Of a stretch of 30,855 nucleotides of DNA, positions 3,000 to 22,712 are shown in pieces. The DNA is from a virus. Both the position numbers and the translations under genes were made by a program. The notes beneath the pieces are model-generated. The model saw nothing but the letters and a program-made list of their open reading frames with translations. It did no database searches and was not told the DNA's origin. The stretch is from the IMG/VR virus record IMGVR_UViG_3300033156_000249, positions 1-30,855 of that record; one strand, given 5' to 3'. Within the stretch, counting starts at the first letter, position 1; each line of letters starts with the position of its first letter.

Positions 3000-3116
3000 T
3001 CACGAGTTTGCAAGCAGCAACACTATGCCCTTTATGATTAGCCAGACAGCCGCAACAACGTTGAGGCCGCACATCGCCCCAAGCCAGGCCCGCCAACCGG
3101 GTTCATCTTCTCTCAT
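3000..3116 (-). CDS. 38-aa membrane microprotein
   Basis: The frame MREDEPGWRAWLGAMCGLNV continues into a hydrophobic segment and ends LLLANS. ATG 3116 overlaps the stop of the upstream open frame as ATGA, the usual linkage in this arm. There is no SD directly before it, so it would depend on coupling to the upstream frame. It has one predicted membrane span and unknown function. Confidence 0.55.
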   Translation of the reverse strand: MREDEPGWRAWLGAMCGLNVVAAVWLIIKGIVLLLANS

Positions 3117-3248
3117 TGCGCTAAAGCCAGCGGCCCCAGCTCATTCGTGGCCTCCTCTCTCAAGTCTTCACGCGGAACCGCGTACTCGTGAGCCTTTCCC
3201 TCGTTTGGCGCAGGTTGAGAGCCAAGAATAAGACTGTTGTTCGTCCAT
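3113..3248 (-). pseudogene. Small gene with an apparent frameshift near its start
   Basis: A frame ending at 3113-3115 reads as plausible protein (for example EYAVPREDLREEATNELGP then LALAQ) and joins the next ATG by ATGA overlap. It has no ATG, GTG or TTG start upstream in frame before a stop at about 3272. An ATG at 3248 with a GGGAGG SD opens a different frame (MDEQQSYSWLSTCAKRGKGS) that dies after 26 codons. One base between them would give a single small protein of about 45 aa. I read this as one gene split by an indel. Confidence 0.4.
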
Positions 3249-6019: not shown

Positions 6020-6035
6020 GTGGAACCGGTTCCAC
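6020..6035. promoter_or_regulatory. 16-bp palindrome, operator site 1
   Basis: GTGGAACCGGTTCCAC is a perfect palindrome identical to three other sites (15864, 20304, 27292). It lies in the divergent region between the leftward arm and the rightward head module, 20 bp upstream of the -35 of the rightward promoter. The CCGG-centred symmetric form resembles LacI/GalR-family operators; that is inference from operator style, not a demonstrated match. Confidence 0.75.
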
Positions 6036-6969: not shown

Positions 6970-7337
6970 TGCTGAAGGTAGATACAGGGCTGAGTATCTA
7001 GTTCTGGCTGCTAGTTATGGTGGTACTGGGAGTTGTTGTGCTCGCGATGGTGGTGGCTCCTGCCGATGCGTCAGACGACTGGGACGCCTTGTTGCCCGAC
7101 GAATATGGCATAAGCCTGTTTGTGGTGCCTGCGGTCAACGAGGACGAGCGTGGGTTGGCGACACTAAGTTGGCAGGCATTCAGCGTTAACGATTGGGGTG
7201 CCTATGCGACAGTGCTGAGGCCATACTATCAGCCTGGGTTCGGGGCGGATGCTGGCATCACGCGACGGAAGATACGGTTCGGCGTGGGCTACGTGGACGA
7301 AGACACTTGGGGCATATATCTGAGGCGGGCATTCTAG
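6966..7337 (+). pseudogene. Signal-peptide protein gene with an in-frame TAG after codon 11
   Basis: The SD GGAGGAGG points to ATG 6966, which overlaps the previous stop. The frame meets TAG at 6999-7001 after 11 codons and then continues open to 7337. The remaining frame from ATG 7017 gives 106 aa: a hydrophobic signal or anchor (MVVLGVVVLAMVVAPADA) and a soluble domain ending RRAF. ATG 7017 has no SD, so the intact product would need reinitiation, suppression or a changed TAG (for example TGG). The stop overlaps the GTG of the large terminase. Function is unknown; an exported or membrane-linked small protein between the terminase genes is unusual. Confidence 0.5.
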
Positions 7338-8515
7338 TGGCTACAGACATAGCAAGCCACCTACGGAAGAAGCGCATGAGGGCGTCGCCTGATGCGATAG
7401 CGGAGGAGATGCGCCACATTGAGGAGGCGCAGGAGCGCATACGCATCAGGAAAGCCCAGGAAGACGTTAATGCCTTCATGGAGTACTGCTTCTTTGACGG
7501 TAGTGGCAACTTCTTCCAGCAAGGCCAGATACACAGAGAGTGGCAAGGCTTAGTTCCGCTTCAAGGCCCTTCGCGCACCTTGATAATCGCACCTAGAGGC
7601 CACGGCAAGACAGAACAGATGTCTATCGGGAGAGTGATATGGGAGATAGGGCGCAATCACGAGTTGCTGGTCAAGGTCGTCATGGGCAAAGACGAATACG
7701 CTTCTGCCCTAGTATCCTCGATAGGAGAGCACATCACAGACAACCCACGGGTGAGGAATGTCTTCCCCAGCCTCAAGCCCCACACATTCAGGTCATGGAA
7801 GACGCATCGTCTCTACGTGGAGAGAGAGTCGCACTCTAAAGACCCGACGGTAGAAGCTGGTGCCATTCTCGCGTCGGGCGTAAGCGGGCGGTCGAACCTG
7901 CTTGTCTTCGACGATGTAGTGACGCCCAAGAATGCCATATTCCAACCCGCATTGCAAACACACGTGCGGGCGCAGTACCGCGATGCTTGGCTGAACACGC
8001 TTCTTCCCGATGGTCGTATTGTCTACATCGCGACACCGTGGACAGAGAATGACCTCACCTGCACCTTAGAAAAGCAGAAGGGTTGGAATGTCTGGAAGCG
8101 CCCCGCTATCTTCAATGGCGAGGCCATCTGGCCGGTATGGTCAATAGCTGCCCTTGAGAATAGGCGGCAGGAGATAGCAAACGATAGGGCATTCAATCAG
8201 CAGTATCTCCTTCAGATGTTCCTTGAGAATGAGCGCGTTTTCTCGTTCGAGGGCATAGAGAAGTGCAAGCGGCGCGACCTATATCTCGGCGAGGGCATAG
8301 ACCCTACGTGGCCCCGCTACATAGGTGTTGACTTGGCGAGGACGGCGGGTGGCGGTAACTACACGGTGGTCTTCGTTATTGCTGTGGACGAGGAGGGCCG
8401 CCGACATGTAGTGGACATAATCCGGCGGCAGATGAGGGCGCTAGACGCGGCTAGTTTGATATATGAGGCCTACGAGCGCCACAAGCCCCAGTTAGTCGCA
8501 AGTCTATCCCCGTGA
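7337..8515 (+). CDS. terL: Terminase large subunit, ATPase and N-terminal part of nuclease; truncated
   Basis: The GTG start at 7337 shares a base with the previous TAG. The 392-aa product contains a Walker A (IIAPRGHGKTEQMS), a Walker B (LLVFDDVV), and the ATPW coupling motif, followed by the RNase H-like nuclease start IGVDLARTAGGG with its first catalytic Asp. TerL pumps DNA into proheads and cuts the concatemer. This frame stops after YERHKPQLVASLSP. The rest of the nuclease domain continues in another frame from 8512. In relatives of this TerL type a stretch with a second acidic motif (V-E-N/S-N) follows the Y-x-R-x-x-P segment, and it is absent here. The gene therefore appears to have lost part of the nuclease domain and shifted frame. 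Confidence 0.85.
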   Translation: MATDIASHLRKKRMRASPDAIAEEMRHIEEAQERIRIRKAQEDVNAFMEYCFFDGSGNFFQQGQIHREWQGLVPLQGPSRTLIIAPRGHGKTEQMSIGRVIWEIGRNHELLVKVVMGKDEYASALVSSIGEHITDNPRVRNVFPSLKPHTFRSWKTHRLYVERESHSKDPTVEAGAILASGVSGRSNLLVFDDVVTPKNAIFQPALQTHVRAQYRDAWLNTLLPDGRIVYIATPWTENDLTCTLEKQKGWNVWKRPAIFNGEAIWPVWSIAALENRRQEIANDRAFNQQYLLQMFLENERVFSFEGIEKCKRRDLYLGEGIDPTWPRYIGVDLARTAGGGNYTVVFVIAVDEEGRRHVVDIIRRQMRALDAASLIYEAYERHKPQLVASLSP

Positions 8516-8877
8516 GAGGTTTCTATACAGGCGCCAAGAAGCACGATTTGAATATGGGGGTGCCAGGATTAGCCGCGCAGGTAGACAATGGGGGGTGGGT
8601 TATCCCCTTCGCGGGAGACCACGAGGGTGTTACGCATAGCTGCCCCGTTTGCAGTTGGATAGAGGAAATGATAACATACCCCGTTGGTGACTACAATGAT
8701 ACCGTGATGGCGATGTGGCTTGCTGACGCTGCCGCTAAAGGCACGGGCGTAAGCCGCGAGGTGTTCGATGCGTGGGCGGCGTTCCCGAAGACGGCTTCTG
8801 CAAGAAAGGCGCAAGAAGAACATGAACAGGCTGACGACTTGGGCACAACGCCTCTGGAGACAGGTAGCCCGCTCTAG
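8512..8877 (+). pseudogene. terL: C-terminal fragment of terminase large subunit
   Basis: The frame, readable from just before the TerL stop as SRKSIPVRGFYTGAKKHD and onwards for about 120 aa, matches the end of a TerL nuclease domain. GVPGLAAQVDNGGWVIPF and the final acidic motif GDYNDTVMAMWLADAA supply the third metal-binding Asp. It overlaps the truncated TerL frame by 4 bp and the portal start by 56 bp. It has no SD of its own at 8512, so it is read as the second piece of the broken gene, not a separate protein. A real split TerL made of two polypeptides is possible, but the missing middle motif argues against it. Confidence 0.7.
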
Positions 8878-10273
8878 GAAACCCGCTACAGATACAGGTG
8901 TCACTCATAGTAGCAGGTTCCTAGATACGCTTCCGTGGCTGTCAATCTCTAACACGCGCAAGGACGAAGAGAATATCATTGACCGCATGGACAACGAGGA
9001 TGGCGTAGTCTCTACTGCGCTAGACGTGATAGCTGACTGTGCGACGACCTTCATAGACCCCCAGGAAGACAGGGACTTCCTCATAGAGGGCCATTCTATG
9101 GCTGTGGAGACGTTGGGGGCAATGGTAACCCGAACGGGCTTGGCGACACAGACGTGGGACATCGTGCGGACAATGGTAAAGAAGGGCAATCACTTCCTTG
9201 AACCCGTCTTGGGCGAGGACAAAAGGATTGAACGCATCAAGCAATTCCCGCACAGCTACCAGATACATAAGAACGTTGATGCCTATGGTAACCTGAAGTC
9301 GGGCGACCCCGTTGATGCCTTCCGCCGGAAGGTACGGGGGGAAGCTCCCTACGACCAGATAGTTGACAATACGTTGGTGGCTTGTTTCTACGCTTGGCAG
9401 ATAGTTCATCTGGCCTATGGCGCGTTTGAGGGCCGAACATACGCCAAGGCCATGCTCTCTAGGGAACGCAGGAACTGGCAACGCCTTCAGATGGCAGAGG
9501 ACTCTGTAGCAATGGCGCGACTTATTAGGGCATACGAGACGCTTGTGCATCACGTTCCGGTGCCTAATGGTTCTACGCCACAAGAGCAGATGGCTGCGAT
9601 AGACACCTATGTAGGAAGCATGAAGAGGGAGCAGTTGGGAGGCTGGGATACCAGTCATTCTGCTACGACCTTCAGCAGCCAGCCTAATCCGCCGGATGTC
9701 TACACGGACATCTTCCTGCCCAAGTTGTATGACCCGCAAGGTAGGGTAGTGGCAGATGGTCAAGTCGAAGCTATCGGCGGCAGCAATCCTCATATCACGC
9801 GGCTGGATGACCTTGATAGGAGCCTCAACCGGATATTGTGTACGCTCAAGGTGCCAGCCAAACTCTTGAACTATGACATTGGCAGGAGGACATTTGTAGG
9901 CACGGGCGACAAGGAACGCGATGAACAGTTTGGGCGCACCTTGCGTCACGTACAGCGTGCTGTAAAGATGGGCCTTAAGCGCATCTTCGACCTGGAGTTA
10001 ATCCTGAACGGCATTAATCCTGCAAGCCCAGAGGGAGAGTACTCTATCGTTATGCCACCAATCGCAGTACGTGCGGAGGAGAGGGAGGCCAACATCGAAC
10101 TCCAGCGAGCGCAGACCGCAAGCAACTGGCGCAACGTCAACCTCCCCGATGAGGTTATCTGGCAGAAGGTACTGCGTCTCACTCCTGAGGAGATTGCTGA
10201 TGCCATGCAAAAGCAACAGGCCCAAGCTACTGCCACACCCGTGCCAGGAGGCGATAACGATGCGCCAGATTGA
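8822..10273 (+). CDS. Portal protein (T4 gp20-like)
   Basis: The product is 483 aa from ATG 8822 (MNRLTTWAQRLWRQVARSRK); the SD is weak and the gene overlaps the TerL C-terminal fragment. Directly downstream of TerL, it has portal features: EENIIDRMDNEDGVVSTALD near the N-terminus (wing), the stem-region pattern AMLSRERRNWQRLQMAEDSV ... VHHVPVPNGS, and DIFLPKLYDPQGRVV ... GGSNPHITRLDDLDRSLNRI typical of T4 gp20-like portals. It would form the dodecameric DNA channel and prohead vertex. The C-terminus is Gln/Ala-rich. Intact and of normal length. Confidence 0.8.
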   Translation: MNRLTTWAQRLWRQVARSRKPATDTGVTHSSRFLDTLPWLSISNTRKDEENIIDRMDNEDGVVSTALDVIADCATTFIDPQEDRDFLIEGHSMAVETLGAMVTRTGLATQTWDIVRTMVKKGNHFLEPVLGEDKRIERIKQFPHSYQIHKNVDAYGNLKSGDPVDAFRRKVRGEAPYDQIVDNTLVACFYAWQIVHLAYGAFEGRTYAKAMLSRERRNWQRLQMAEDSVAMARLIRAYETLVHHVPVPNGSTPQEQMAAIDTYVGSMKREQLGGWDTSHSATTFSSQPNPPDVYTDIFLPKLYDPQGRVVADGQVEAIGGSNPHITRLDDLDRSLNRILCTLKVPAKLLNYDIGRRTFVGTGDKERDEQFGRTLRHVQRAVKMGLKRIFDLELILNGINPASPEGEYSIVMPPIAVRAEEREANIELQRAQTASNWRNVNLPDEVIWQKVLRLTPEEIADAMQKQQAQATATPVPGGDNDAPD

Positions 10274-11015
10274 TGAGGAGATTGTCCTGACCCGCATAGA
10301 CACAATGGAGACGGGGGAACCCAACCTCTTCTTTGAAAGCGACCCTATAAGCGAGGCTTGGGCGGCCCTTGAGAGGACAGACGAGGACGCACCTCCACAG
10401 GAGTTCATAGGCATAGCGCCCTACTTGCCACGATACGAGGTAGTACTACGGCCCATAGTGGCAGCAGAGGTTGCCATGCCCGATGTCTTGCCCCTGAACG
10501 AGTTTCATGAACCGCCAAGGGCTACCCGTGAGGGTGAGCCTTCTTACCCGCTGGTGTTGCAGCCGCTTCTAACTGGCAGACGCATTCAGATACACAAGAA
10601 GGGCAACACGGTCAGGGTCTTCGACTATGTGGGTGAAGCCCTTACCGGCAAGATTGTGGTGCGGGATGTTGAGGGCAACGAGGAAACAAGGAACGCCTCC
10701 GCGTTGTTTCTCGCCCTGGCGGGCATTGACGAGGTAGATAGTGCTATCTTCGATGCCGTGCTTGCCGCTGGCATTGATGCGGTTGCAGTTACAGATGTCT
10801 TGCGTTGGGATAACATGGCCGCACACGAACTGCCCACGGTCTCGCGCATGGAGCTTCTTGATAGGATAGAATGGCCGAACAATACTGGCAGAGTGGCCCA
10901 TGTTCTGGCAGAGGACGAAACTACCGAGAAGCCTTGGGAAACTAGCGTGGGCAGGCCCGCATTCGGCGGTTACTTCGAGGAGGGCTGGACAGTTGTCGAA
11001 CGAGACGCCAGTTGA
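10260..11015 (+). CDS. Degenerate ATP-dependent DNA ligase-like (nucleotidyltransferase fold) protein
   Basis: The product is 251 aa, starting at ATG 10260 with SD AGGAGG; the longer frame inside portal is rejected. Residues 95-210 follow the adenylation-domain order of ATP-dependent ligases: PLLTGRRIQIHKKGNTVRVF (motif I to III), then FDAVLAAGIDAVAVTDVLRW and SRMELLDRI (the usual F-D-V-L ... R-R-E-L-L segment). Where a ligase has K-x-D-G, this has L-L-T-G, so the AMP-accepting Lys and the Asp are missing. It is placed between portal and capsid genes, where structural proteins are expected. A head-assembly role reusing the fold is my inference. The similarity is by eye only. Confidence 0.45.
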   Translation: MRQIDEEIVLTRIDTMETGEPNLFFESDPISEAWAALERTDEDAPPQEFIGIAPYLPRYEVVLRPIVAAEVAMPDVLPLNEFHEPPRATREGEPSYPLVLQPLLTGRRIQIHKKGNTVRVFDYVGEALTGKIVVRDVEGNEETRNASALFLALAGIDEVDSAIFDAVLAAGIDAVAVTDVLRWDNMAAHELPTVSRMELLDRIEWPNNTGRVAHVLAEDETTEKPWETSVGRPAFGGYFEEGWTVVERDAS

Positions 11016-11433
11016 GCTTGGCGAACCCTATACGCTGAAAAACCTACCCGACAGGCTGAAGGGATTGCCGACTTCGGCAAAGCGGGCGTGGGTCAAGACA
11101 TGGAACAACTCATACAAGCATTACCTGTCCAAGGGCAAGTCCGCTAAGGACGCCGAGAGTCTGGCCTTTGCTACCGCCAATGCGCAGTTGAAGAAGATGG
11201 GCTGGCATAGGTCTGCCAACGGCAAGTGGGTCAAGCGAGATAGCAAGAACCAAGATGACTTGCACCAACTCAGTACGGCTGCCCTCGTTGCTCTCCACAA
11301 CGCTCTGCATGAAGATTGTTCGCAGGATATGGACAAGGCCGCCGATATGCACCAGACAGTTGTGCGGATGCTACAAGCGCGGGGATTGAAGCATCCTGCT
11401 TGGGATAGCCTAGACGACTCAGAGGTTGCTTGA
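10993..11433 (+). CDS. ChaB-domain protein of the head module
   Basis: The product is 146 aa. The TTG start at 10993 is chosen because GAGGAGGG lies about 8 nt upstream and codons before it run through the previous gene. Residues about 14-75 (YTLKNLPDRLKGLPTSAKRA ... ATANAQLKKMGWHRSANGKW) match the ChaB fold, a small helical module often found in phage head clusters near the prohead protease. The C-terminal half is helical (LSTAALVALHNALHEDCSQD). Its biochemical role in phages is not established. It is followed by a promoter for the capsid gene. Confidence 0.65.
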   Translation: MSNETPVELGEPYTLKNLPDRLKGLPTSAKRAWVKTWNNSYKHYLSKGKSAKDAESLAFATANAQLKKMGWHRSANGKWVKRDSKNQDDLHQLSTAALVALHNALHEDCSQDMDKAADMHQTVVRMLQARGLKHPAWDSLDDSEVA

Positions 11434-11458
11434 CAGCCCAGCGCATGTTTGTTACTAT
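11430..11458 (+). promoter_or_regulatory. Promoter for the capsid polyprotein gene
   Basis: TTGACA (11430-11435) and TACTAT (11453-11458) are separated by 17 bp in the only sizeable gap of the head module. Transcription would start near 11465, about 50 nt before ATG 11514. A dedicated promoter fits the need for many capsid copies. Confidence 0.65.
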
Positions 11459-11477
11459 ATCGTGTAGTGGTAGTAAC
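11451..11477. promoter_or_regulatory. Inverted repeat over the -10 and start of the capsid promoter
   Basis: GTTACTA (11451-11457) and TAGTAAC (11471-11477) are perfect 7-bp inverted arms with 13 bp between. They cover the -10 and the predicted start site, so a protein bound here would block the promoter. It differs in sequence from the CCGG palindromes. Confidence 0.4.
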
Positions 11478-11513
11478 CATTAGGCCTTGGGAGGCTCAGA
11501 GGATGCGACTTGA

Positions 11514-14315
11514 ATGGCTCGCCAGTGTGAAAACGCGGGTACTGATGCTTGCATTGCTGAGGCTCTCGGCTACCCCCCCGACGAAGCCCTAGCTGATGAC
11601 GTGCTGAATGCCACGGAGCAATGTCCTCATTTCCATGAACTCTCCGAGGACGAAACCTGCCCCTACGCCGACTGGCTCCGAGAATACACGGAATACACGG
11701 ACAAGGAACGTGAGGCTCTGCGCAAGGCGCGGGACGCCAGGAGCCGCAGGTATGGCATTGAGGTTCTGCCCCAGGGCCATCTCACGAAACCTGGAGAGTA
11801 CAAGAATATCGCGGACAATGATTTCGGCGACCCTGTGAACTGGCTTTACCCGATAGATGCCTCACACGTCAGGGCTGCCATCACTTACATGGCGAAAAAC
11901 TATAAGCAGTATAAGAAGACCGCCTCGCGGAGGGTTGTCTGGAATCGCATTATAGCCGCCGCGAGGAGCAATGGCATCAAGCACAAGTACAATACAGCTA
12001 GTCCCCTCGATAGGCTCCTGAATCCATCGCTCAAGCGTTGGGCCAAGAAGAATGCAGGCATGGGCGCGGAGAGCATAGAGGCCGCCCAGGCAGCGATTAG
12101 CGAGGCTGCTACCATCGCCGATGCTATGAGGGCCGAGAGCGAAGCATTCATTGCCCTAGAAGGTACGGAGGGGATAGAGCAGGACGCTTGGCGCAAGGTA
12201 CTTGAACAAGCCGACCATAGGCTACGCTCACTTGCGGAAGAGCAAGGCCTTGATGTTATCGAGGACGCGTACGCCAATGACAAGCCGCAGATTGACGAGG
12301 GCGCTACCGTGGGGGAGGGAGAAGTCCCCATCACGGGTACGTTTGCTCGCGTCAACATTCTTACTGCCAACGGTCGGGTGTATCCTCAAAGCGTGTGGGA
12401 AGCCAATGAAGACCACATCGAGGCTATGCTCATGAACGGGAAGCTAATCGGAATGGAGGGCCACCCAGGGTGGTTCTCGCCTGGGACTGACCTCGGCAAG
12501 ATTAGCGTACTGTTCACCGACATCTGGCAGGACAGAGACCGGATGCGGTATAAGGCGAAGGTGCTGAATACCGCATCTGGCGAGAACCTGAAGCAGCTTA
12601 TTCGGGCCGGAGTAGGCGTCGAGTGGAGCACGCGAGGGTTCGGTTCGGTGGAGAAGGAGGAGTGGGAGAACGGCGAGGAGGTAGAAGTCGTTCAGGACGA
12701 CTATGTGCTGGCTGCGATAGACTCGGTGTTTGAGGGCGCAGCCCCTGACACCAGCATTCAGGTCATACAACCTGAGGAGCAGACAGCACAGACGGAACCG
12801 AACGTTCAAGAGTCGCAAAAGGAGGATACGATGGCTACTCAGAAGGGCCAAGAAGACGTTATTAAGGAGACCGTAGAGAAGGTTGTAGAGGAGAAGCCGC
12901 CACAGGCTGTTCCAGAAGATACCGCCGAACTCAAGGCTCGCCTTGAGAAGCTGGAGCAGGAAGAGGCCTTGCGTGCGCAGAGGGAAGCCCTCTCCGCCCA
13001 TGTTGAGGAGAAGATTGCCGCTGAAGAGGTCGCGGCACTTCCAGCAGAACTGCGCAGCCGCTTGGAGAGTGCCCTCACGAAATGCACAAGCGTCGAGGAC
13101 ATTGACAAGACCTTCGAGGTGCTCTATGCGCCTATGAAGGAGGCTGCCGAGATTAAGGCGAAGGCCGGTGTTGGTATTCAGGTACACGCCGACGACGAAA
13201 CCGAACTGCTTGCCTCAGAGCGCCGACCGTTGCCTGAGACTCCCGCCGAGGTAGTCAATCAACTTGTTGAGGGTCTCGTAGCCGACGGTATGAGGGATAC
13301 GGGCGAGGACAATCCCACGAACCCCGTATGGTGCTTCCGTCGGATAATTGAGAACTATCAGAAGGAGCATCCATACTACATCAACGTTCTGACCCGCGAG
13401 GGCTTTGCCCGCCACCAGAGTCTCGTGGAGGCGACCACAAGTTCAGACATAGCCGTTGGCGCGCCGTACATCTTGCCGCTATTCCGCAGGACGTTCCCGA
13501 GGCTCATTGCTCAAGAACTTTGCTCCGTGCAGCCGATTGATAGGCCGGACGGCAAGGTATTCTTCCTGAATCCATTGGCCAAGCCAAGCGACAGTCGGCT
13601 TGACCAGAGTGCCAACTTCGATAGCACGTATGCTGACCACACGGAGGAGGCGGCTAAGGCGCGGGTGGGCCTCTCTATCACCGAGGCGTCTATTAGCGCC
13701 ACGGAGAAGTCAATTGAAGCGAAGTGGACCTCCGTGCTCCAGCAGGACATTGCAGCGTATCACGGTCTGAATGCCGAAGAGGAGTTGCTTAACATTGCGG
13801 CTAACGAAATCGCCCGCGAGGTTAACTACACCATCCTTGAGGATATGCGAAGCAATGCCTCTGGGTCCTCGATGACCTTTGAGTTCATTTCCCGCGCAGG
13901 CGGGGAGATTGCCAGCAAGAAGTACCGACGCCCCAACTGGCTTGTGTGTGACCCGATTGCAGCGTCTCGTTTCTCGGCGCTTAATAACTTCGTGGCGGCT
14001 GCGCCAGACGAGCAGAATACCTTCGGTATTGATGTAACGTATGAGGGTGTTCTTTCTAACCGCTGGCGCGTGTACTCCGTCGGCTGGTTCACCACGGACA
14101 CGATAATGCTTGGCTATAAGGGCCAGGACTGGAATGACACGGCCTACATCTACGCACCGTATGTTCCGGTCTATGTCTCGCCGAGCAGCTACAACACGAG
14201 CACCAACATCGCCAGCCGGTCGGTGAACACTCGGTACGCCACCTATCTTGTGGACGGCGACTTCTTCGGGCTGGTGACGATTGACTCCGGTACTGCTGGC
14301 ACAGACCTAACGTAG
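11514..14315 (+). CDS. Fusion polyprotein: DUF6582-like region, prohead protease, scaffold, major capsid protein
   Basis: One uninterrupted frame of 933 aa. Residues 1-60 are Cys-containing. Residues 78-180 resemble DUF6582-type phage domains (HLTKPGEYKNIADNDFGDPV, NWLYPIDASHVRAAI). Residues 268-415 resemble a gp21-like prohead protease, with His317 in GMEGHPG and Ser372 in EWSTRGFGS as candidate catalytic residues. Residues 445-545 are acidic coiled coil, as in scaffolds. Residues 645-933 resemble T4 gp23-like HK97-fold capsid (LPLFRRTFPRLIAQEL, SVQPIDRPDGKVFFLNPLAK). ATG 12831 (Met440) is preceded by AAGGAGGATACG, a full SD inside the frame, so a 494-aa scaffold-capsid protein is probably also made. 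The single Gln codon CAA at residue 435 is one change from TAA. Two genes merged by stop loss is therefore a real alternative. Confidence 0.85.
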   Translation: MARQCENAGTDACIAEALGYPPDEALADDVLNATEQCPHFHELSEDETCPYADWLREYTEYTDKEREALRKARDARSRRYGIEVLPQGHLTKPGEYKNIADNDFGDPVNWLYPIDASHVRAAITYMAKNYKQYKKTASRRVVWNRIIAAARSNGIKHKYNTASPLDRLLNPSLKRWAKKNAGMGAESIEAAQAAISEAATIADAMRAESEAFIALEGTEGIEQDAWRKVLEQADHRLRSLAEEQGLDVIEDAYANDKPQIDEGATVGEGEVPITGTFARVNILTANGRVYPQSVWEANEDHIEAMLMNGKLIGMEGHPGWFSPGTDLGKISVLFTDIWQDRDRMRYKAKVLNTASGENLKQLIRAGVGVEWSTRGFGSVEKEEWENGEEVEVVQDDYVLAAIDSVFEGAAPDTSIQVIQPEEQTAQTEPNVQESQKEDTMATQKGQEDVIKETVEKVVEEKPPQAVPEDTAELKARLEKLEQEEALRAQREALSAHVEEKIAAEEVAALPAELRSRLESALTKCTSVEDIDKTFEVLYAPMKEAAEIKAKAGVGIQVHADDETELLASERRPLPETPAEVVNQLVEGLVADGMRDTGEDNPTNPVWCFRRIIENYQKEHPYYINVLTREGFARHQSLVEATTSSDIAVGAPYILPLFRRTFPRLIAQELCSVQPIDRPDGKVFFLNPLAKPSDSRLDQSANFDSTYADHTEEAAKARVGLSITEASISATEKSIEAKWTSVLQQDIAAYHGLNAEEELLNIAANEIAREVNYTILEDMRSNASGSSMTFEFISRAGGEIASKKYRRPNWLVCDPIAASRFSALNNFVAAAPDEQNTFGIDVTYEGVLSNRWRVYSVGWFTTDTIMLGYKGQDWNDTAYIYAPYVPVYVSPSSYNTSTNIASRSVNTRYATYLVDGDFFGLVTIDSGTAGTDLT
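12821..12833 (+). promoter_or_regulatory. Internal ribosome-binding site and start within the capsid polyprotein frame
   Basis: GGAGG (12821-12825) is preceded by AAAA and followed after 5 nt by ATG 12831, in frame with the 933-codon gene. It is as strong as any start in the window. It should produce a separate scaffold-major capsid protein, comparable in principle to lambda Nu3, which starts inside gene C. Confidence 0.75.
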
Positions 14316-15914: not shown

Positions 15915-16935
15915 TCAACGCGAAATCAAACCTTCATATACCTTCCGATATGCCTCCGCCACTAGCTCGACATCCCACGCTTCTGCCGTCCGTTGTGCCC
16001 GCACGTTGCGTGCTCCGGCCGCGATGGGGTCTTCTGTAACCTTCTTTACGCCCTGGGCAATCGCTTCCGCTCGCTGACCGCTCTACGATTATCCCATCAT
16101 CACGGTCTGGCGACACAAGTTCGTTCAGAGCGGGCACATCGGGCACCACCACGTTCTTGCCAGCGGCCATAGCCTCCGCAATCACTAGCCCGAAGCCCTC
16201 GCGTTCCGAGGTGCTGATGACCACATCGGCCAACCTATACGCCACGAGCATAGCATGAGGCGGAACATAGGGAACCCACGTCACCCTCCCTTGGAGGGCT
16301 TTGACTCTCTCCTCGAAGTCAAAGTCAAGCTTCGGTTCGGCCTCGCGCAGGTAGAAGTCCCCTACGATAAGGAAGTGATAGCGGGGTAGAAGGTCTATCA
16401 CCTCGAAGAGAAGAGCCACGTCCTTCGGCGGGTGCATACTGTTTAGCCTGCCCGACCAGAGTACTATCGGCGATAGAAAGGGTAGCCTCCACCTTGCCCG
16501 CCAGGTATTCAGAGGCAGGAAGCCGACACGTTGTGCGAGGTATTTCGTGTCCACGCCAGGGGCGATGATGGCAGTACAAATCAAACCGTTCTTGCTGATG
16601 CCATCCGCAACCGCCCGCGAGACTGCTACTACTGCAACGGGTTGTTTCAGTTCGCGCACGAGTGTTGCTTCGTCGGCGGTGGGCACATTGTGGAATGTCA
16701 CGACAACGGGGATGTCCCTCCAAGGAAGCCTCGGCAGCAGCGACGCCCCGTGGCAATGCACTACGTCGGGTTCGCCCTTGCTTCCTAGCAGCCCTTCCTT
16801 GGGGAAGAAATACGTGTCGGTGGCAAAGGCCAAGGTATGCCTGTACTCTGGTAGATAGCGGGCTAGGTTGAGGATGACGCGCTCGCGCCCACCGGGTGCC
16901 CAGAAGGGAGCAATATGCTCGATTGTTAGTCCCAA
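15915..16935 (-). pseudogene. GT-B glycosyltransferase (GT4-like), frameshifted by a 4-bp tandem duplication
   Basis: The TTG start at 16935 follows GGGGAGG and overlaps the previous stop. The N-terminus (MGLTIEHIAPFWAPGGRERV) and the C-terminal domain (SPIVLWSGRLNSMHPPKDVA, STSEREGFGLVIAEAMAAGK) are those of a retaining GT-B enzyme; the E-x-F-G-L-x-x-x-E motif is present. After GIIVERSA the readable frame turns into Arg/Gly-rich sequence ending at 15934. The other frame reads EAIAQGVKKVTEDPIAAGAR and VELVAEAYRKVYEGLISR to a TGA at 15915, which is the expected final helix. The cause is AGCG repeated twice (16068-16075); removing one copy restores the frame. The enzyme would transfer a sugar from a nucleotide donor. 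The damaged end may abolish folding or be an assembly error. Confidence 0.7.
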
Positions 16936-17849
16936 GACAGCCTCCCCGTGCTTCGTCGCCTCTTGGCGACCGTGATGACCTTCCGCGCCAGTTCATTCTG
17001 CTTGTCAGCATTTCGCCTGGAGATTTGCTCCTCGTGCCTGCGATAGTAGGCCAGCACAGCGTCTACTAGCACGAACCTCGCGCCTGCTTCCTCCGCTCTC
17101 AGGGCAAAGTCCAAGTCTATCGCCGCCTCAAGCCCCTCGTCGAAGCCCCCTATCGCCCGCCACACAACCTTGCGGTATGCCCGAAACCCGAAGCTCAAGC
17201 TGCCCTCACAGAAGACACCAGGGTAATATGCGGGTCGCCTTACAAGTTGATTCCCGCCCCCGACCTTTTGGCAATGACCATACACGTAGTCTGCTTCCTC
17301 AAGGGCCTTGACCGCGAGACCGAGGGCATTGTCTGCAAGTCTGTCATCATCATCTATCTCGGCTATGATTTCTCCGCTTGCTACCATGTTACCCACATTC
17401 CGCGCCCGCGAAACACCTTGCTGCTCGGCAAGCCGTACATACGTGGCACCATAAGAGGCGGCGCACGTGCACGCCCCCTCGTGTTCGCTGGCATCATCTA
17501 CTACGATGACCTCCTTGGGTTCGTAGGGTTGACGTGCCACACTCGCTAGGCACTCGTTGAGCATCTGGAGACGGTTGCGCGTTGGGATGACAATAGAGAC
17601 AAGGGGGTACTCATGGAGTTGAGAGGATGATAGGACGGGTGCAGAAACTACCGTGGGAGGCGCAGGTGAGTACTCTTCAATGGGCAGACCTGCTGCTGCT
17701 GCGTCTACGTCTGCGACATCTGCACTCTCTCCAGGATAGAGCGTGCGGTTCCCCACCTTGATAGGCATCGTGTTCGTGTTGCGGACATGCACAACCCGTC
17801 CCTTGCCTATTAGCTTGAGGGTGCCCTTAGCTCGTCTTACCGTTGGCAT
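16926..17849 (-). CDS. GT-A glycosyltransferase (GT2-like) with extra N-terminal module
   Basis: The product is 307 aa. ATG 17849 follows GAGGGGCACAG and overlaps the epimerase end. Residues 83-190 form the GT2 nucleotide-binding half (PLVSIVIPTRNRLQMLNECL, VIVVDDAS, SRARNVGN, and the metal-binding AEIDDDD). Later GGFDE ... DLDFALRAEEAG is the usual acceptor-side motif. The first 60 residues are unusual: RRAKGTLKLIGKGRVVHVRN followed by a short beta-like stretch and an acidic linker. A similar module begins the GT4 gene at 21393-22712. The likely role is adding a sugar to a phage structural protein or surface glycan, cytoplasmic and using NDP-sugar. Confidence 0.8.
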   Translation of the reverse strand: MPTVRRAKGTLKLIGKGRVVHVRNTNTMPIKVGNRTLYPGESADVADVDAAAAGLPIEEYSPAPPTVVSAPVLSSSQLHEYPLVSIVIPTRNRLQMLNECLASVARQPYEPKEVIVVDDASEHEGACTCAASYGATYVRLAEQQGVSRARNVGNMVASGEIIAEIDDDDRLADNALGLAVKALEEADYVYGHCQKVGGGNQLVRRPAYYPGVFCEGSLSFGFRAYRKVVWRAIGGFDEGLEAAIDLDFALRAEEAGARFVLVDAVLAYYRRHEEQISRRNADKQNELARKVITVAKRRRSTGRLSWD

Positions 17850-18903
17850 CTGTGCCCCTCGACAGTACGCTGCCGAACTCTTGGGTTATATGTTCGCCCT
17901 CTTGCAAAGCAGTAAGCCAGTTGATGTTTCTCGTCTCAAGGTCAAAGAAGTCGGCATCATGAGCAAGGAGACTATCTACCATAGCAGCTACGCCCCGCTG
18001 GGGTTCCCATCCCAGAACTCTTCGCATCTTCGAGGAGTCCAAGTCATAGCTTCTACCCTCCGAACGCGACCAGTCACCTACCACGCGGACATCATAGCCG
18101 CGCTTGTTCAGCAACTCTGCAATCCAGAGGGCCAGACTTGCTATTGCGTAGCCCTCTCCTATAAGGCTCTCCGCACCGTGTGGCGTCCGACGGTGCGCCA
18201 CATTGAAGACCTCGCCTGCTATTGGCGCATCCACTTCTAGGAAGCGCACATGCGCCTCGGCTACGTCCTGTACGTCTATTAGGGGCCGCCGTGCCTCGCC
18301 TCCAGCGTGTACGCTAATCTTGCCCTTGAGCAATGCCCACATGACCATTGTGTTCACCACAAGGTCCCAGCGCATTCTTGGCGACCAGCCGCTTACCGTC
18401 GCCTGTCTGAGAATCACAGGCTCGAAACCGTCACCTGCCAGTGGGATAAGCTCTCTCTCAGCATCCAACTTGCTTTGCGCGTAGTAACTCTGCGGCTCAA
18501 GTTCATTGTCCTCTGTAAGACCAACCTTGTGCGAAAAGCCATACACGGATGCAGAGGAGGCAAACGTAAAGCGGCGAATACCCGCATGTTTAGCTTGTCG
18601 TGCCATAGTTGCAGTAGCATGTACGTTCATCCTGCGGTTCTCTTCGGGCCAGCGTTGTGCAGTAGGGTCATTGCTCAGACCAGAAAGGCAGACGGCAGCA
18701 TCCATGCCTTCGTAGTACCTTGGGTCAAGCTGGCTTATGTCAGCCCTTATTAACTCCACGGGCGGGCTTATTTCCGCCAAGGCGCGGATACCGCTGGGGA
18801 ATAGGCCCTTGTCCACTACGCGGACGTGGTGCCCCCTCTCCACAAGCTGTTGGCAAAGCGGTACACCTATGTAGCCTCCACCTCCAGCCACTAGCACTTG
18901 CAT
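17827..18903 (-). CDS. NAD-dependent epimerase/dehydratase (extended SDR)
   Basis: The product is 358 aa. VLVAGGGGYIGVPLCQQL gives the Rossmann GxxGxxG motif, SSASVYG supplies the catalytic Ser, and YYAQSK the Y-x-x-x-K pair. RRPLIDVQDVAEAHV and GEVFNVAH are usual for nucleotide-sugar epimerases/dehydratases. It would interconvert an NDP-hexose, probably feeding the four glycosyltransferases around it. The start at 18903 is immediately preceded by a hairpin that contains the SD (18905-18924). Length is a little above typical because of a C-terminal tail of about 40 aa (DADFFDLETRNINWL onward). The exact sugar cannot be assigned. Confidence 0.8.
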   Translation of the reverse strand: MQVLVAGGGGYIGVPLCQQLVERGHHVRVVDKGLFPSGIRALAEISPPVELIRADISQLDPRYYEGMDAAVCLSGLSNDPTAQRWPEENRRMNVHATATMARQAKHAGIRRFTFASSASVYGFSHKVGLTEDNELEPQSYYAQSKLDAERELIPLAGDGFEPVILRQATVSGWSPRMRWDLVVNTMVMWALLKGKISVHAGGEARRPLIDVQDVAEAHVRFLEVDAPIAGEVFNVAHRRTPHGAESLIGEGYAIASLALWIAELLNKRGYDVRVVGDWSRSEGRSYDLDSSKMRRVLGWEPQRGVAAMVDSLLAHDADFFDLETRNINWLTALQEGEHITQEFGSVLSRGTDANGKTS

Positions 18904-18904
18904 A

Positions 18905-18924
18905 GCACGAGGCCTCCCTCGTGC
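18905..18924 (-). promoter_or_regulatory. Hairpin enclosing the ribosome-binding site of the epimerase gene
   Basis: On the transcript GCACGAGG and CCTCGTGC form a perfect 8-bp stem around a GAGG loop, ending one base before the ATG at 18901-18903. The SD (GAGGGAGG) is partly in the stem and loop, with another GAGGGAGG upstream. It could lower or regulate translation. Confidence 0.5.
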
Positions 18925-18933
18925 CTCCCTCGC

Positions 18934-19416
18934 CTATTTGAACTCCGTTTGCCACATCTCGCTTGCTTGATGGAAGAAATACGGCCCAACACGTTCCTCG
19001 TCTAGTTCGCCCTTCCTATCCTTGCCCATGTAGGGTTCAGAAGCAATGCTCACTAGAAGCGTTCCGTCTACGAGTGCCTTCCAACCGTGCCAAACGCCAG
19101 GCGGCACGTCCAAGCGTGTGGGCTTTGAAGCAGCAGTAGTGATAGCGTAGACGTTGCCAGAGGGGTCGGGCGGCTCATCAAGCCCTGCGTCCACGAAGAG
19201 GAACTTGGCTGCCCCTCGTGCAATGAAAAATACGTCCCACATCTTAAAGTGTCTATGGAACCCCCTGATGGTGCCCGCTGTGAAATCCTCCACGATATAC
19301 ACTTGCCCAAAGTTCTCGAAGCTCGGTTCGTCACACCTAAACACCTCCACTAGCGAACCCCTATCGTCCACGAAGTGCATAGGCAGCGTTACTACGCGCA
19401 CCTTACCCTCTGACAT
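18934..19416 (-). CDS. RmlC-like cupin, putative dTDP-sugar 3,5-epimerase
   Basis: The product is 160 aa, with SD AGAGGAG before ATG 19416. VDDRGSLVEVFR, GQVYIVEDFTAGTIRGFHRH, DVFFIARGAAKFLFVDA and LDVPPGVWHGWKAL follow the RmlC-type dTDP-4-dehydro-6-deoxyglucose epimerase fold. The G-F-H-R-H segment holds the candidate catalytic His. RmlC epimerises C3 and C5 of the keto-sugar before RmlD reduces it to dTDP-L-rhamnose, and the RmlD gene lies directly upstream. It is shorter than a typical RmlC and the exact isomerase class (3,5- versus single-site) is uncertain. Confidence 0.7.
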   Translation of the reverse strand: MSEGKVRVVTLPMHFVDDRGSLVEVFRCDEPSFENFGQVYIVEDFTAGTIRGFHRHFKMWDVFFIARGAAKFLFVDAGLDEPPDPSGNVYAITTAASKPTRLDVPPGVWHGWKALVDGTLLVSIASEPYMGKDRKGELDEERVGPYFFHQASEMWQTEFK

Positions 19417-19430
19417 CTCTTTCTCTCCTC

Positions 19431-20288
19431 TCAGCGCCTTGGGGACGCCCAGCCTCTCTCTCGCAGGTACTGGGATACCTCTTCACGCCAGTCTGGTGCA
19501 TCTGCTAACCGTGTGTTCAGCAAGTCGCTTTGTTTAGGCCTCAGTTCATCAGGAGAGCCAGTCCTAGCAGCAAAGTCCACCCTCTTGTGTAGCATCTCTG
19601 CCACAGCGTAACCGAGCGTGTGATGGCTACATGCGCCACCTCCAGCACAATGATAGATACCGCCATTACCCTCACGAACCCTAACGGCCACCTCGCAGAT
19701 TCTCTGTGCGGCAGACTTGGCGTAGGTAGGAGAGAAGCGCGTGTCGGCATCAAGCTCTAGGTGCCTGCCTTCTCGTGCAGCCCTCGCTAGGAAGTCTATG
19801 AAGTTGCCTCCGCCCTTGCCTCTGCACCCCTTCTTACCGTAGAGGTAACTCACGCGGCAGATTGCCGCTTTCTCTCCCAATATGCTGAGGGCCGCTAGTT
19901 CTCCCGCACGCTTCGTCATACCGTAGACTGACTTGGGCCTACAAGGAGCAGTCTCGCTATAGTTGCCAAGCACCCCATCGAACACGTAGTCTGTACTCAC
20001 GTAGATATACACACAGTCGCCTAAAACGTCTGTGAACTGCACAAGGGGGATTGCAGTATTGACATCCCACGCTTTCGCGGGCTGCCTCTCGCACTTCTGC
20101 AAGTCGTGTAGGGCCGCTGTGTTCACCACCACATCCGGCTGTGCATCCATGAGGGGATGGAGGCTACTTGCGTCTGCCACCTCAATGTGTGTGTGTTTGA
20201 AGCCCAGCATCTTGTGGCCAAGCTTCTTGCCTTCGAGCATCAGTTCGCTGCCAAGCTGCCCCGAACTCCCAATCACTGCGATTCGCAT
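19431..20288 (-). CDS. rmlD: dTDP-4-dehydrorhamnose reductase
   Basis: The product is 285 aa, full length for RmlD. MRIAVIGSSGQLGSELM contains the NAD(P)-binding G-x-x-G-x-x-G, PDVVVNTAALHDLQKCE is the N-T-A-A motif, STDYVFDG has the catalytic Ser/Thr region and YGMTKRAGE the Y-x-x-x-K pair. It would reduce dTDP-4-keto-L-rhamnose to dTDP-L-rhamnose. GGAGG stands 6 nt upstream of ATG 20288 and palindrome site 3 is 15 bp upstream of the ATG. RmlA and RmlB are not in the window, so early steps must come from the host or from outside this fragment. Confidence 0.85.
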   Translation of the reverse strand: MRIAVIGSSGQLGSELMLEGKKLGHKMLGFKHTHIEVADASSLHPLMDAQPDVVVNTAALHDLQKCERQPAKAWDVNTAIPLVQFTDVLGDCVYIYVSTDYVFDGVLGNYSETAPCRPKSVYGMTKRAGELAALSILGEKAAICRVSYLYGKKGCRGKGGGNFIDFLARAAREGRHLELDADTRFSPTYAKSAAQRICEVAVRVREGNGGIYHCAGGGACSHHTLGYAVAEMLHKRVDFAARTGSPDELRPKQSDLLNTRLADAPDWREEVSQYLRERGWASPRR

Positions 20289-20303
20289 TTGTGGCCTCCG
20301 ATT

Positions 20304-20319
20304 GTGGAACCGGTTCCAC
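20304..20319. promoter_or_regulatory. 16-bp palindrome, operator site 3
   Basis: This perfect GTGGAACCGGTTCCAC copy ends 4 nt upstream of the rmlD SD in a 61-bp intergenic gap. No good promoter is visible just upstream on the minus strand, so it more likely acts on transcripts arriving from the tail genes than on a local promoter. Confidence 0.75.
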
Positions 20320-20349
20320 TTTTAGGATAGGGGTCCTGCGGCTATCGCC

Positions 20350-21396
20350 TTATCCCGAGGCCCCAACCCTCGCCCACCCCTTCTCGGCGGTGCCCCTTTC
20401 AACACGAGACAATAGCATGTCTACGACGTGCTGAACCGTGTAGTGCTTGAGGGCATAGTCGCGGCCAACCCTTCCAAGCTTCTTCCGTAGGTTAGGTCGA
20501 GTTATCAGCTTTGCCATGCCGTCAAGCCAGTCTTCTGCATGATATGCCAGCAAGCCCACCTTGCCATTGTTGGTAACCTCTGCATGGGACGGTGTGTCCT
20601 CCAGTATGACAGGCAGGCCCATTGCCATGAGACTGGCGCTCTTGTTGCACGACTTACTCCATGTCCAGTCTGACTGCTCTAGGGGGATAGCCGCAAAGTC
20701 GCATGAGGCCATAAGCGGGGCAACCTCATCGCGATGCCATGGGTAAAACTCGACCTCTCCTGGGAGCAACTCTCGTGCCCATTCCTCGTTCGACTTCCCT
20801 GCGCTGTTCATAGCAGGACACGAGATAATCCAAGTGAGATTGTACTTGTCCGCAAGTTCTGGCAATGCCCACCTAATAGGTGACAGCCCGAACCAGCAGA
20901 GGTTATCAGTAAAGCCATGCCAGCCGATACGAACCGACTTCTTTCTCCGGCTGTATTTGACACGCTCCTGAAGCCAGTTGGTGTCAATCGCCTCCGGCCA
21001 GTAGTAGACATGAGGGTGGAATACTCGCAAGGTCTTTTGAAGCCAGACAGAACACGTAAGCAACGCATCCGCTTCTGCAAGCAACCTGGCTCCTGTGCTG
21101 CCCGGACCCTCTCTTCGGAAGAGACTGTCGTTCACATCCAACAGCACGATGTTTGCTAGGGCCTTCGCTGCTGCCATACGCTTGAAAGTAGGCTGGCGTT
21201 GTATCAATACAAGGTCAGCAGGACTATTGTCGTAGTATGGGCGCACATCTGCATGTAGACTCTCTGGCCCGTCCTCAGACCAGAAGAAGGCTTCTATGCC
21301 ACGCCTCTCTAGTTCCTCGCGCACACGTATTCCGCGCTGGCGCACCGTGGGGTTCTGTGGGTCTCCGTCACCTAGCAATCGGATGAGAATCCTCAA
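20350..21396 (-). CDS. GT-B-type glycosyltransferase
   Basis: The product is 348 aa from TTG 21396, after GGGAGG, with TTGA overlap to the gene upstream. The N-terminal half (MRILIRLLGDGDPQNPTVRQ, DLVLIQRQPTFKRMAAAK) and the C-terminal half (VRIGWHGFTDN, FAAIPLEQSDWTWSKSCNKS, MAMGLPVILEDTPSHAEVTN, the terminal helix RKKLGRVGRDYALKHYTVQH) follow the two-Rossmann GT-B layout of GT4-like enzymes. The donor-binding segment is atypical, so family assignment is by layout. It is expected to act on the same acceptor as its partners. No N-terminal module like that of its neighbour is present. Confidence 0.7.
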   Translation of the reverse strand: MRILIRLLGDGDPQNPTVRQRGIRVREELERRGIEAFFWSEDGPESLHADVRPYYDNSPADLVLIQRQPTFKRMAAAKALANIVLLDVNDSLFRREGPGSTGARLLAEADALLTCSVWLQKTLRVFHPHVYYWPEAIDTNWLQERVKYSRRKKSVRIGWHGFTDNLCWFGLSPIRWALPELADKYNLTWIISCPAMNSAGKSNEEWARELLPGEVEFYPWHRDEVAPLMASCDFAAIPLEQSDWTWSKSCNKSASLMAMGLPVILEDTPSHAEVTNNGKVGLLAYHAEDWLDGMAKLITRPNLRKKLGRVGRDYALKHYTVQHVVDMLLSRVERGTAEKGWARVGASG

Positions 21397-22712
21397 GCTA
21401 ACAATCCTCCCAGTATGCTGTAGAAATGCTTAACATACGCAAGGTGCGTCCTTTCGCGCCAAGGGCGCAGGCCGTTGAGCATTATTCTCTCGCGTAGGCA
21501 CTCGTCCTCGAATAGAGTGCTTACCCCTTCGACGATTGCTTGAGCGTCTTTCATGGGCACAAGCCAGATGTTCTCACCATGTTCAGCGTAATCCAGCCCG
21601 ATAGGAGTAGCCACAACTGGCGTCCCACAGGCCATAGCCTCCCTCACCGTCCGAGGAGTTCCCTCAATGAGACTAGGTGAGACAAAGACCGTGGCGCGTG
21701 AGTATAACCGTGCAACCTCATCTTCATTGTAAGTACGCACATGTGTGACCTTACATGACATCTTAGGAGGAGGATAGCCAAGCCACGTGACTTCTAGGTC
21801 GGGGTACTTACTAGCTAGGCTGTTGATAGCTGGTATGAGATAGTCATGCCCATCGTACCAAACATGAGCGCCCTTTGTCACCACCATAATGCTGTGGTCC
21901 CAGGGTTTAGGGCTAAGGAACGCCTGGCATGGACAGAAGGTCAGCGTGTCAACTCCAGGGTTAAGTTTTCCCACGATATCCATGCCATATTTCTCAGCGA
22001 ACTCCCACATGTGGTCTGCAATGATTATGTCCTTGAAGCCGTCTAGCTCAAAGCACTTTTTCCACTCCTCGTACTGGGGTTGGCCCCGCACCCACTCCGG
22101 CTCATCACTCTGCACAAGGCCTATTCTCACACGGCAGTCTATGGCCCTAGCTACGGGACGCGTGGTGACGAAGGTGCCCATCACCATATCATAATATGGG
22201 GCTTCTTGTCCTCGAAGGACGCAATTGACCCAAGGCCATTGCGACATGAAGTCGGGGCGGGCGAAGGAGACATCCACGTACCACCCCATCTTGAGAAGAT
22301 AGTAAGCAATGGATTGTATTGCCTTGACGCCACCACTAAGGCCCCCATCGCCCGTGACAATGCAGCAGGTGCGTTGCTTCCCCGTAGCATTCTTCTGCGG
22401 AAGCTTTGAGGGGTCTACGTAGCCGTCCTCGTTGCTCCACAGCCAAGTGTAGCTTGCCTCATGGGAATATGCTCCCGTGGAGGGGGGCTGTGCTGGTGCA
22501 GGCATTGGCTGCTCTCCTTCGGGGAATATCACTTCCACCTTCTGGGGGTCAATCGCTCGTGTATCAATGTCGCCCTCTGCGGCAAGGCGCTCGCCTCTTG
22601 GCGGAATAGTGTATAGGCCGACGCGCTGGACGTGGGGTGTGAGGTTGCGGAGCCTAATAACCCTCCCGCCTCCCAGAACGCGGATAGTTCCTACCGACTC
22701 TACACGGCGCAT
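21393..22712 (-). CDS. GT-B glycosyltransferase (GT4-like) with extra N-terminal module
   Basis: The product is 439 aa, with GGGAGG before ATG 22712. Residues 1-60 hold the module GTIRVLGGGRVIRLRN plus a hydrophilic linker, similar to the start of the GT2 enzyme at 16926-17849. From about residue 105 comes a GT-B enzyme (RTCCIVTGDGGLSGGVKAIQ, KLNPGVDTLTFCP, SPSLIEGTPRTVREAMACGT, then PVVATPIG), with the G-x-P-x-x-x-x-E-A motif of GT4 retaining enzymes. It is the first sugar gene after the tail-fibre genes and is coupled to the next GT by TTGA overlap. It probably decorates phage or cell surface targets. Confidence 0.75.
   Translation of the reverse strand: MRRVESVGTIRVLGGGRVIRLRNLTPHVQRVGLYTIPPRGERLAAEGDIDTRAIDPQKVEVIFPEGEQPMPAPAQPPSTGAYSHEASYTWLWSNEDGYVDPSKLPQKNATGKQRTCCIVTGDGGLSGGVKAIQSIAYYLLKMGWYVDVSFARPDFMSQWPWVNCVLRGQEAPYYDMVMGTFVTTRPVARAIDCRVRIGLVQSDEPEWVRGQPQYEEWKKCFELDGFKDIIIADHMWEFAEKYGMDIVGKLNPGVDTLTFCPCQAFLSPKPWDHSIMVVTKGAHVWYDGHDYLIPAINSLASKYPDLEVTWLGYPPPKMSCKVTHVRTYNEDEVARLYSRATVFVSPSLIEGTPRTVREAMACGTPVVATPIGLDYAEHGENIWLVPMKDAQAIVEGVSTLFEDECLRERIMLNGLRPWRERTHLAYVKHFYSILGGLLA

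Follow-up and report, generated by a model that had tools for sequence, protein, structure and literature searches.

The window analysed here is the whole stretch of 30,855 nucleotides of the virus record IMGVR_UViG_3300033156_000249. On its plus strand, a single open frame at 11514-14315 joins, in this order, a DUF6582-like region, an S77 protease, a scaffold, and a major capsid protein (MCP) of the Gp23 family. A near-identical contig of 45,291 bases, IMGVR_UViG_3300033150_001041 (from here on G001), was used for comparison. The features of the region are the following.

11430..11458, plus strand: promoter-like TTGACA-17-TACTAT with TG before the -10 (extended -10); consensus scan, 10/12
11498..11502, plus strand: weak Shine-Dalgarno-like AGAGG of the full-length frame, 11 nt before ATG 11514 (-5.8 kcal/mol)
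11514..14315, plus strand: fused frame, 933 codons in the window and 953 in G001; open reading frame, Pfam, and comparison with G001
11802..11981, plus strand: DUF6582-like region, residues 97-156; Pfam PF20223 (9.1e-9)
12318..12761, plus strand: Peptidase_S77 domain of the T4 gp21 type, residues 269-416; Pfam, with profile and fold matches to 5jbl
12462..12464, plus strand: predicted catalytic His317 (CAC)
12627..12629, plus strand: predicted catalytic Ser372 (AGC)
12817..12825, plus strand: internal Shine-Dalgarno sequence AAAAGGAGG, anti-SD duplex -11.6; also in the relatives L177 and L247
12831..12833, plus strand: candidate internal start codon of scaffold-capsid, Met440; Shine-Dalgarno sequence and in-frame ATG
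12840..13166, plus strand: helical scaffold, about residues 443-551; AlphaFold2 model of residues 440-953
13422..13430, plus strand: predicted protease cleavage site LVE|A, residues 637-639; motif alignment, disordered loop in the model
13431..14312, plus strand: predicted mature gp23-type MCP; Pfam Gp23 and T4 gp23 fold
13881..13882, plus strand: position of 60 bp missing from the window; alignment with G001

The window and G001 differ by indels only, with zero substitutions in the shared sequence, the patch 3036-3140 excepted; this patch is the sole place with substitutions and it also holds several small indels. The indels elsewhere are located at 8134 (3 bp), 8497/8498 (55 bp), 13881/13882 (60 bp), 14700 (2 bp), 16072 (4 bp), and 26209 (7 bp). 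The window lacks the 55 bp inside the terminase gene and the frameshift splits the gene, which is intact in G001 with 580 codons. The 60 bp lie in frame inside the MCP of G001; the 20 residues lost with them in the window include W365 and L369, conserved in the MCP alignment, and the missing segment covers positions that are nearly invariant in 51 MCPs. The longer reading frame is the G001 version in both genes, and the comparison makes it likely that the indels of the window, those of 55 and 60 bp included, are assembly losses. Considering that G001 carries the 60 bp with the conserved MCP positions, the true length of the fused frame is, on this alignment, 953 codons. The original prediction of a single 933-codon frame was thus right as regards one open, fused frame, and its length had to be corrected.

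The stretch 8498-13881 is identical in both contigs, which may not be independent samples, and therefore neither has a stop before ATG 12831, as had been anticipated. The protease, scaffold, and MCP lie in one frame in both contigs, and not in separate genes of the T4 type (21, 22, and 23). The GC content by codon position presented no break across the junction of protease and scaffold, and no further gene of the S77 or Gp23 family was present in the 45-kb contig or in the window. This is a genuine coding frame, and in this virus its domains and their fusion are firmly established.

The N-terminal 265 residues (11514-12310), which include the DUF6582-like segment, had no phage match: tblastn with the DUF6582 region retrieved no match in phages, and a literature search on it gave no paper. 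In the model of the first 540 residues this part was predicted with low to moderate confidence. The protease domain exceeded the family cut-off clearly (PF03420, 3.5e-13, 49.9 bits against a cut-off of 27), its profile matched T4 gp21 (PDB 5jbl) with 1.2e-42, and the model of the first 540 residues matched the same structure with 1.2e-8. PHROGs assigned the fused frame to both head maturation protease and major head protein. The residues His317 and Ser372, proposed before as the catalytic ones, were invariant in the protease alignments (49 sequences). They are separated by 55 residues, the same spacing as that of His85 and Ser140 in gp21. By family cut-off and catalytic residues, the domain is a Peptidase S77 of the T4 gp21 type, predicted to act as the head protease.

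In the AlphaFold2 model of residues 440-953, the scaffold forms long helices and a capsid fold comes after them. The helices were located at model residues 30-63 and 88-112, with pLDDT mostly of 82-90 over 30-112. The Gp23 family (PF07068) covered residues 710-911 with 1.2e-39 and 137.3 bits (cut-off 24.4), and the best fold matches of the capsid model were T4 gp23, 7vrt (9.1e-16) and also 8gmo; both the family model and the predicted fold identify the C-terminal part as a Gp23 major capsid protein. The four parts and their order, proposed from the sequence at the outset, are borne out by Pfam matches and predicted structures in agreement.

The cleavage preference of gp21 is (L/I)xE. A predicted site of this type precedes the RR region of the MCP: LVE|A sits 19 residues before the RR motif, in a low-confidence and probably flexible loop of the model, and L177 has IVE|S at equal spacing. 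LxE-type motifs upstream of RR are also found in other T4-like MCPs, though motifs of the LLENQ type fit the LxE pattern too and make a motif count alone loose. In T4, gp21 trims 65 residues off gp23 (PMC9958956).

The internal Shine-Dalgarno sequence AAAAGGAGG contains AAGGAGG, placed 5 nt before the in-frame ATG 12831. The duplex with the anti-SD has -11.6 kcal/mol at this ATG versus -5.8 at ATG 11514, and it is the strongest among the in-frame starts listed for the frame; the complete Shine-Dalgarno sequence and in-frame ATG that had been pointed out are indeed present. In the loci scanned for this motif, the long frames contain 8,280 internal ATGs, and only 6 of them have AAGGAGG 4-8 nt ahead; two of the 6 lie at the junction between protease and scaffold, one in this virus and one in L177. 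By such counts its position before ATG 12831 is more than chance. The loci L026, L043, L053, and L060 have AAGGAGG ahead of ATGs inside further long frames, close to the frame ends and in glycine-rich stretches. Codon choice was rejected as support for the Shine-Dalgarno sequence, given that the peptide and the codon usage of the genome would yield AAGGAGG in about 60% of cases. At the boundary between scaffold and MCP, Met541 (dG -7.2, spacing 10) was weighed as another start and considered weak. As to the claim that the head gene has its own promoter, there is a match of 10/12 to the consensus at 11430..11458, but the promoter-like matches in the region (7, versus 4.4 with sd 2.2 in shuffles) are not above those of shuffled sequences.

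It was also possible to follow the junction in relatives. The best MCP match among the genome contigs listed, with 34% identity, was L177 (JAFDIG010000002.1), in which a single gene of 295 codons encodes protease and scaffold and has AAGGAGG 5 nt before an ATG at their junction; the homology of this virus to L177 continues through the junction into the scaffold. In L247, AAGGAGG stands 7 nt before an ATG located 54 codons past the catalytic serine. Both relatives thus resemble this virus in having a homologous protease that reads through into a helical scaffold, with AAGGAGG and an ATG at the junction, and differ from it in that the MCP has a gene of its own farther downstream (in L177 some 200 bp beyond the protease-scaffold gene), whereas here it is fused. 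Strong Shine-Dalgarno sequences at 57 and 48 codons past the catalytic serine in L331 and L337 probably mark the same nested start. Among ten S77 protease-scaffold genes, 5 of the 17 ATGs lying 40-75 codons after the catalytic serine had a strong Shine-Dalgarno sequence, against 4 of the 90 other internal ATGs of the same genes (Fisher p 0.005), strong being defined as dG <= -8.5 and both this threshold and the offset range having been picked after the first cases were seen. With a looser threshold (-5.5) the difference in this set was not significant (p 0.07), and a strong internal start was lacking in the related protease-scaffold genes of L211, L321, L325, and L342. The nested start thus recurs in L177 and L247, and probably in L331 and L337, which supports the reading as a nested pair of products, and the nested start at 12831 is well supported by sequence comparison.

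The fusion with the MCP was sought as frames carrying both S77 and Gp23 in loci from IMG/VR, phage records, and GTDB genomes. Among approximately 245 listed loci that carry both genes (about 118, 44, and 83 in three sets, with some contigs recurring), no other virus had S77 and Gp23 in one frame, and every fused match listed was this virus, either as the window or as G001. In the named phages C48C1 and HTVC008M, the protease, scaffold, and MCP are all apart. Scans of IMG/VR with single proteins and with an exact DNA pattern gave, among the matches listed, the near-identical G001 alone; alignment-based scans listed many relatives, none of them fused except G001; and the relatives of the terminase did not lead to related heads. 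Rarer cases of fused T4-type heads may exist beyond the matches listed.

The portal matches T4 gp20 (8.7e-17) and the terminase matches Terminase_6C, which is not of the T4 type; at 7193-8877 and 8768-10273, a gp20-type portal adjoining a non-T4 terminase makes a mosaic head module. The matches to tape-measure, SU10-adaptor, and head-tail adaptor proteins were all weak. These similarities suggest that this uncultured tailed phage is a mosaic with a T4-type head, of uncertain tail type. In other parts of the genome, a 16-bp perfect palindrome, GTGGAACCGGTTCCAC, occurs at 6020, 15864, 20304, and 27292 of the window and at seven sites in G001, almost always between genes and with 0 expected by shuffling; from this distribution it looks like a dispersed operator or a similar regulatory site. 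On the minus strand, the block 15934-22712 resembles glycosyltransferase and nucleotide-sugar genes, with one glycosyltransferase match and the remainder judged by the look of the sequences.

The arrangement as such is not new. Fusions of protease, scaffold, and capsid in a single gene were published for a number of small actinophages, including Microbacterium cluster EE, Arthrobacter AN/AX/FE, Gordonia CW/DM, and Rhodococcus RRH1 (PMC7302621). They have the three parts in one frame and in the same order as here, but with an HK97-type capsid and, where Pfam recognises a protease, one of family S78, in genomes of about 15-18 kb; here the families are Gp23 and S77, the contigs reach 45 kb, and there is an added N-terminal DUF6582 region. 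Judged by its families, the T4-type gene works like the HK97-type single-gene fusions but is not a member of them. In Pseudomonas phage MD8, gp5 combines protease, scaffold, and MCP in one protein of 693 residues (PMC8508860), the protease resembling the lambda C/ClpP type and the MCP having the HK97 fold of a Mu/lambda-like kind, unlike the S77 and Gp23 pair. Two internal methionines of MD8 gp5 (L245) are preceded by Shine-Dalgarno sequences: Met185, within the protease region, by a strong one (-11.4), and Met220, which comes right after that region, by one of moderate strength (-6.9). What is new here is a single-gene head of T4-type proteins, none other being found among the matches listed.

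Nested protease and scaffold products have a precedent in lambda C/Nu3 (Shaw and Murialdo 1980, as cited in PMC8508860). In lambda (NC_001416), the scaffold comes from an in-frame internal start within the protease gene, and the in-frame ATG 12831 at the protease/scaffold junction is predicted to act likewise; lambda differs in its S49 protease and in its MCP (E), which is a separate gene and not fused as here. The T4 genes 21, 22, and 23 encode the same protease and MCP families and the N-terminal propeptide of gp23 is removed by the protease (PMC9958956), but they are three separate genes and here there is one frame. The eleven HK97-type fusions (L234, L236-L244, and L246) were inspected for a comparable start, and most had an ATG with a Shine-Dalgarno-like sequence (AAAGGA, AGAGGA, CAGGAG) just past the protease. 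The values were -10.3 in GMA5, -7.4 in Rahul, -6.2 in BlueFeather, and about -5.6 to -5.8 in Noely, KylieMac, Penoan, Adaia, RRH1, and BurtonThePup, these being moderate energies in high-GC genomes, with the junctions placed by eye where Pfam gave no boundary; in SallySpecial and EricDab such a sequence precedes the protease instead. Herpesviruses also make nested protease-scaffold and scaffold products from UL26/UL26.5, a system that does not include the MCP and whose expression signals are unrelated.

Taking into account the frame and its domains, the catalytic residues, the strength of the internal Shine-Dalgarno sequence, the nested start in the relatives, and the alignment of the cleavage motif, we consider it probable that the locus is a single-gene T4-type head module which works through two nested products. 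The weak start at 11514 would give a minor full-length protein with N-terminal region, S77 protease, scaffold, and MCP, and the strong in-frame start at 12831 would give scaffold-MCP as the major product. Sharing scaffold and MCP, both products would co-assemble, and a minority of the shell subunits would bear the protease. Once the head has assembled, cuts by the protease behind Glu639 (LVE|A) and inside the scaffold would release mature capsid subunits that are all identical and would clear the head interior; cleavage of the gp21 type at LVE|A should leave the same mature capsid from both products. The protease would be covalently held in the prohead, as had been predicted, only until the cut at this site. 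The idea that translation alone sets the protease ratio was overstated, because the result would depend on LVE|A cleavage and self-processing as well. The origin would most likely be a protease-scaffold gene with a nested start, such as those of L177 and L247, in which the stop between scaffold and MCP was later lost.

The same frame could instead be read as a polyprotein only, with a full-length product that cuts itself and an internal Shine-Dalgarno sequence and ATG that are a relic or a coincidence. Release of the MCP by the protease at LVE|A would make a second start unnecessary, and some known single-gene heads have only a weak Shine-Dalgarno-like sequence at the junction. However, each capsid subunit would then bring a protease region of more than 400 residues into the prohead, the internal Shine-Dalgarno sequence is the strongest listed for the frame and exceeds the gene's own, and L177 and L247 show this feature as well; we regard this explanation as improbable.

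A pair of genes, one for the protease and one for scaffold-MCP, with the stop before 12831 erased by an assembly or sequencing error, seems very unlikely. Codons 432 and 435 are both CAA, a single change from TAA, and the window assembly does have deletions elsewhere; yet 8498-13881 is identical in both contigs, the codon-position composition is unbroken at the junction, and L177 and L247 read from protease into scaffold at this same place. Slightly smaller still is the chance that the fused gene is an accessory copy, or one in decay, and that a second MCP or protease lies in a missing part of the genome. Neither contig is closed and the genome may be incomplete, but the window and the 45-kb contig hold no second copy, the catalytic residues and the MCP core are intact in the fusion, and the fused gene follows terminase and portal in the ordinary order of head genes.

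The Shine-Dalgarno-like sequences at the HK97-type junctions are a possible lead towards a nested start of more general occurrence. The chances are a little under even that a nested start kept at the protease/scaffold junction is a general rule of single-gene heads with any type of protease (S77, S78, S49-like), giving a self-dosing protease through loss of the upstream stop with the ribosome-binding site kept, and that the T4-type gene is one of several independent inventions.

The protease, core, and shell of the T4 type normally come from separate genes at differing copy numbers, the T4 head having about 55 gp21, 580 gp22, and 930 gp23 (PMC9958956). If the reading as two nested products from one frame is true, the single-gene head, reported so far with HK97-type capsids, exists with T4-type proteins too, and the dose of protease inside the prohead would be limited by the relative strength of two starts in one frame. 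It would also point to a simple route for the fusion of head genes, namely, the loss of a stop with the downstream ribosome-binding site kept.
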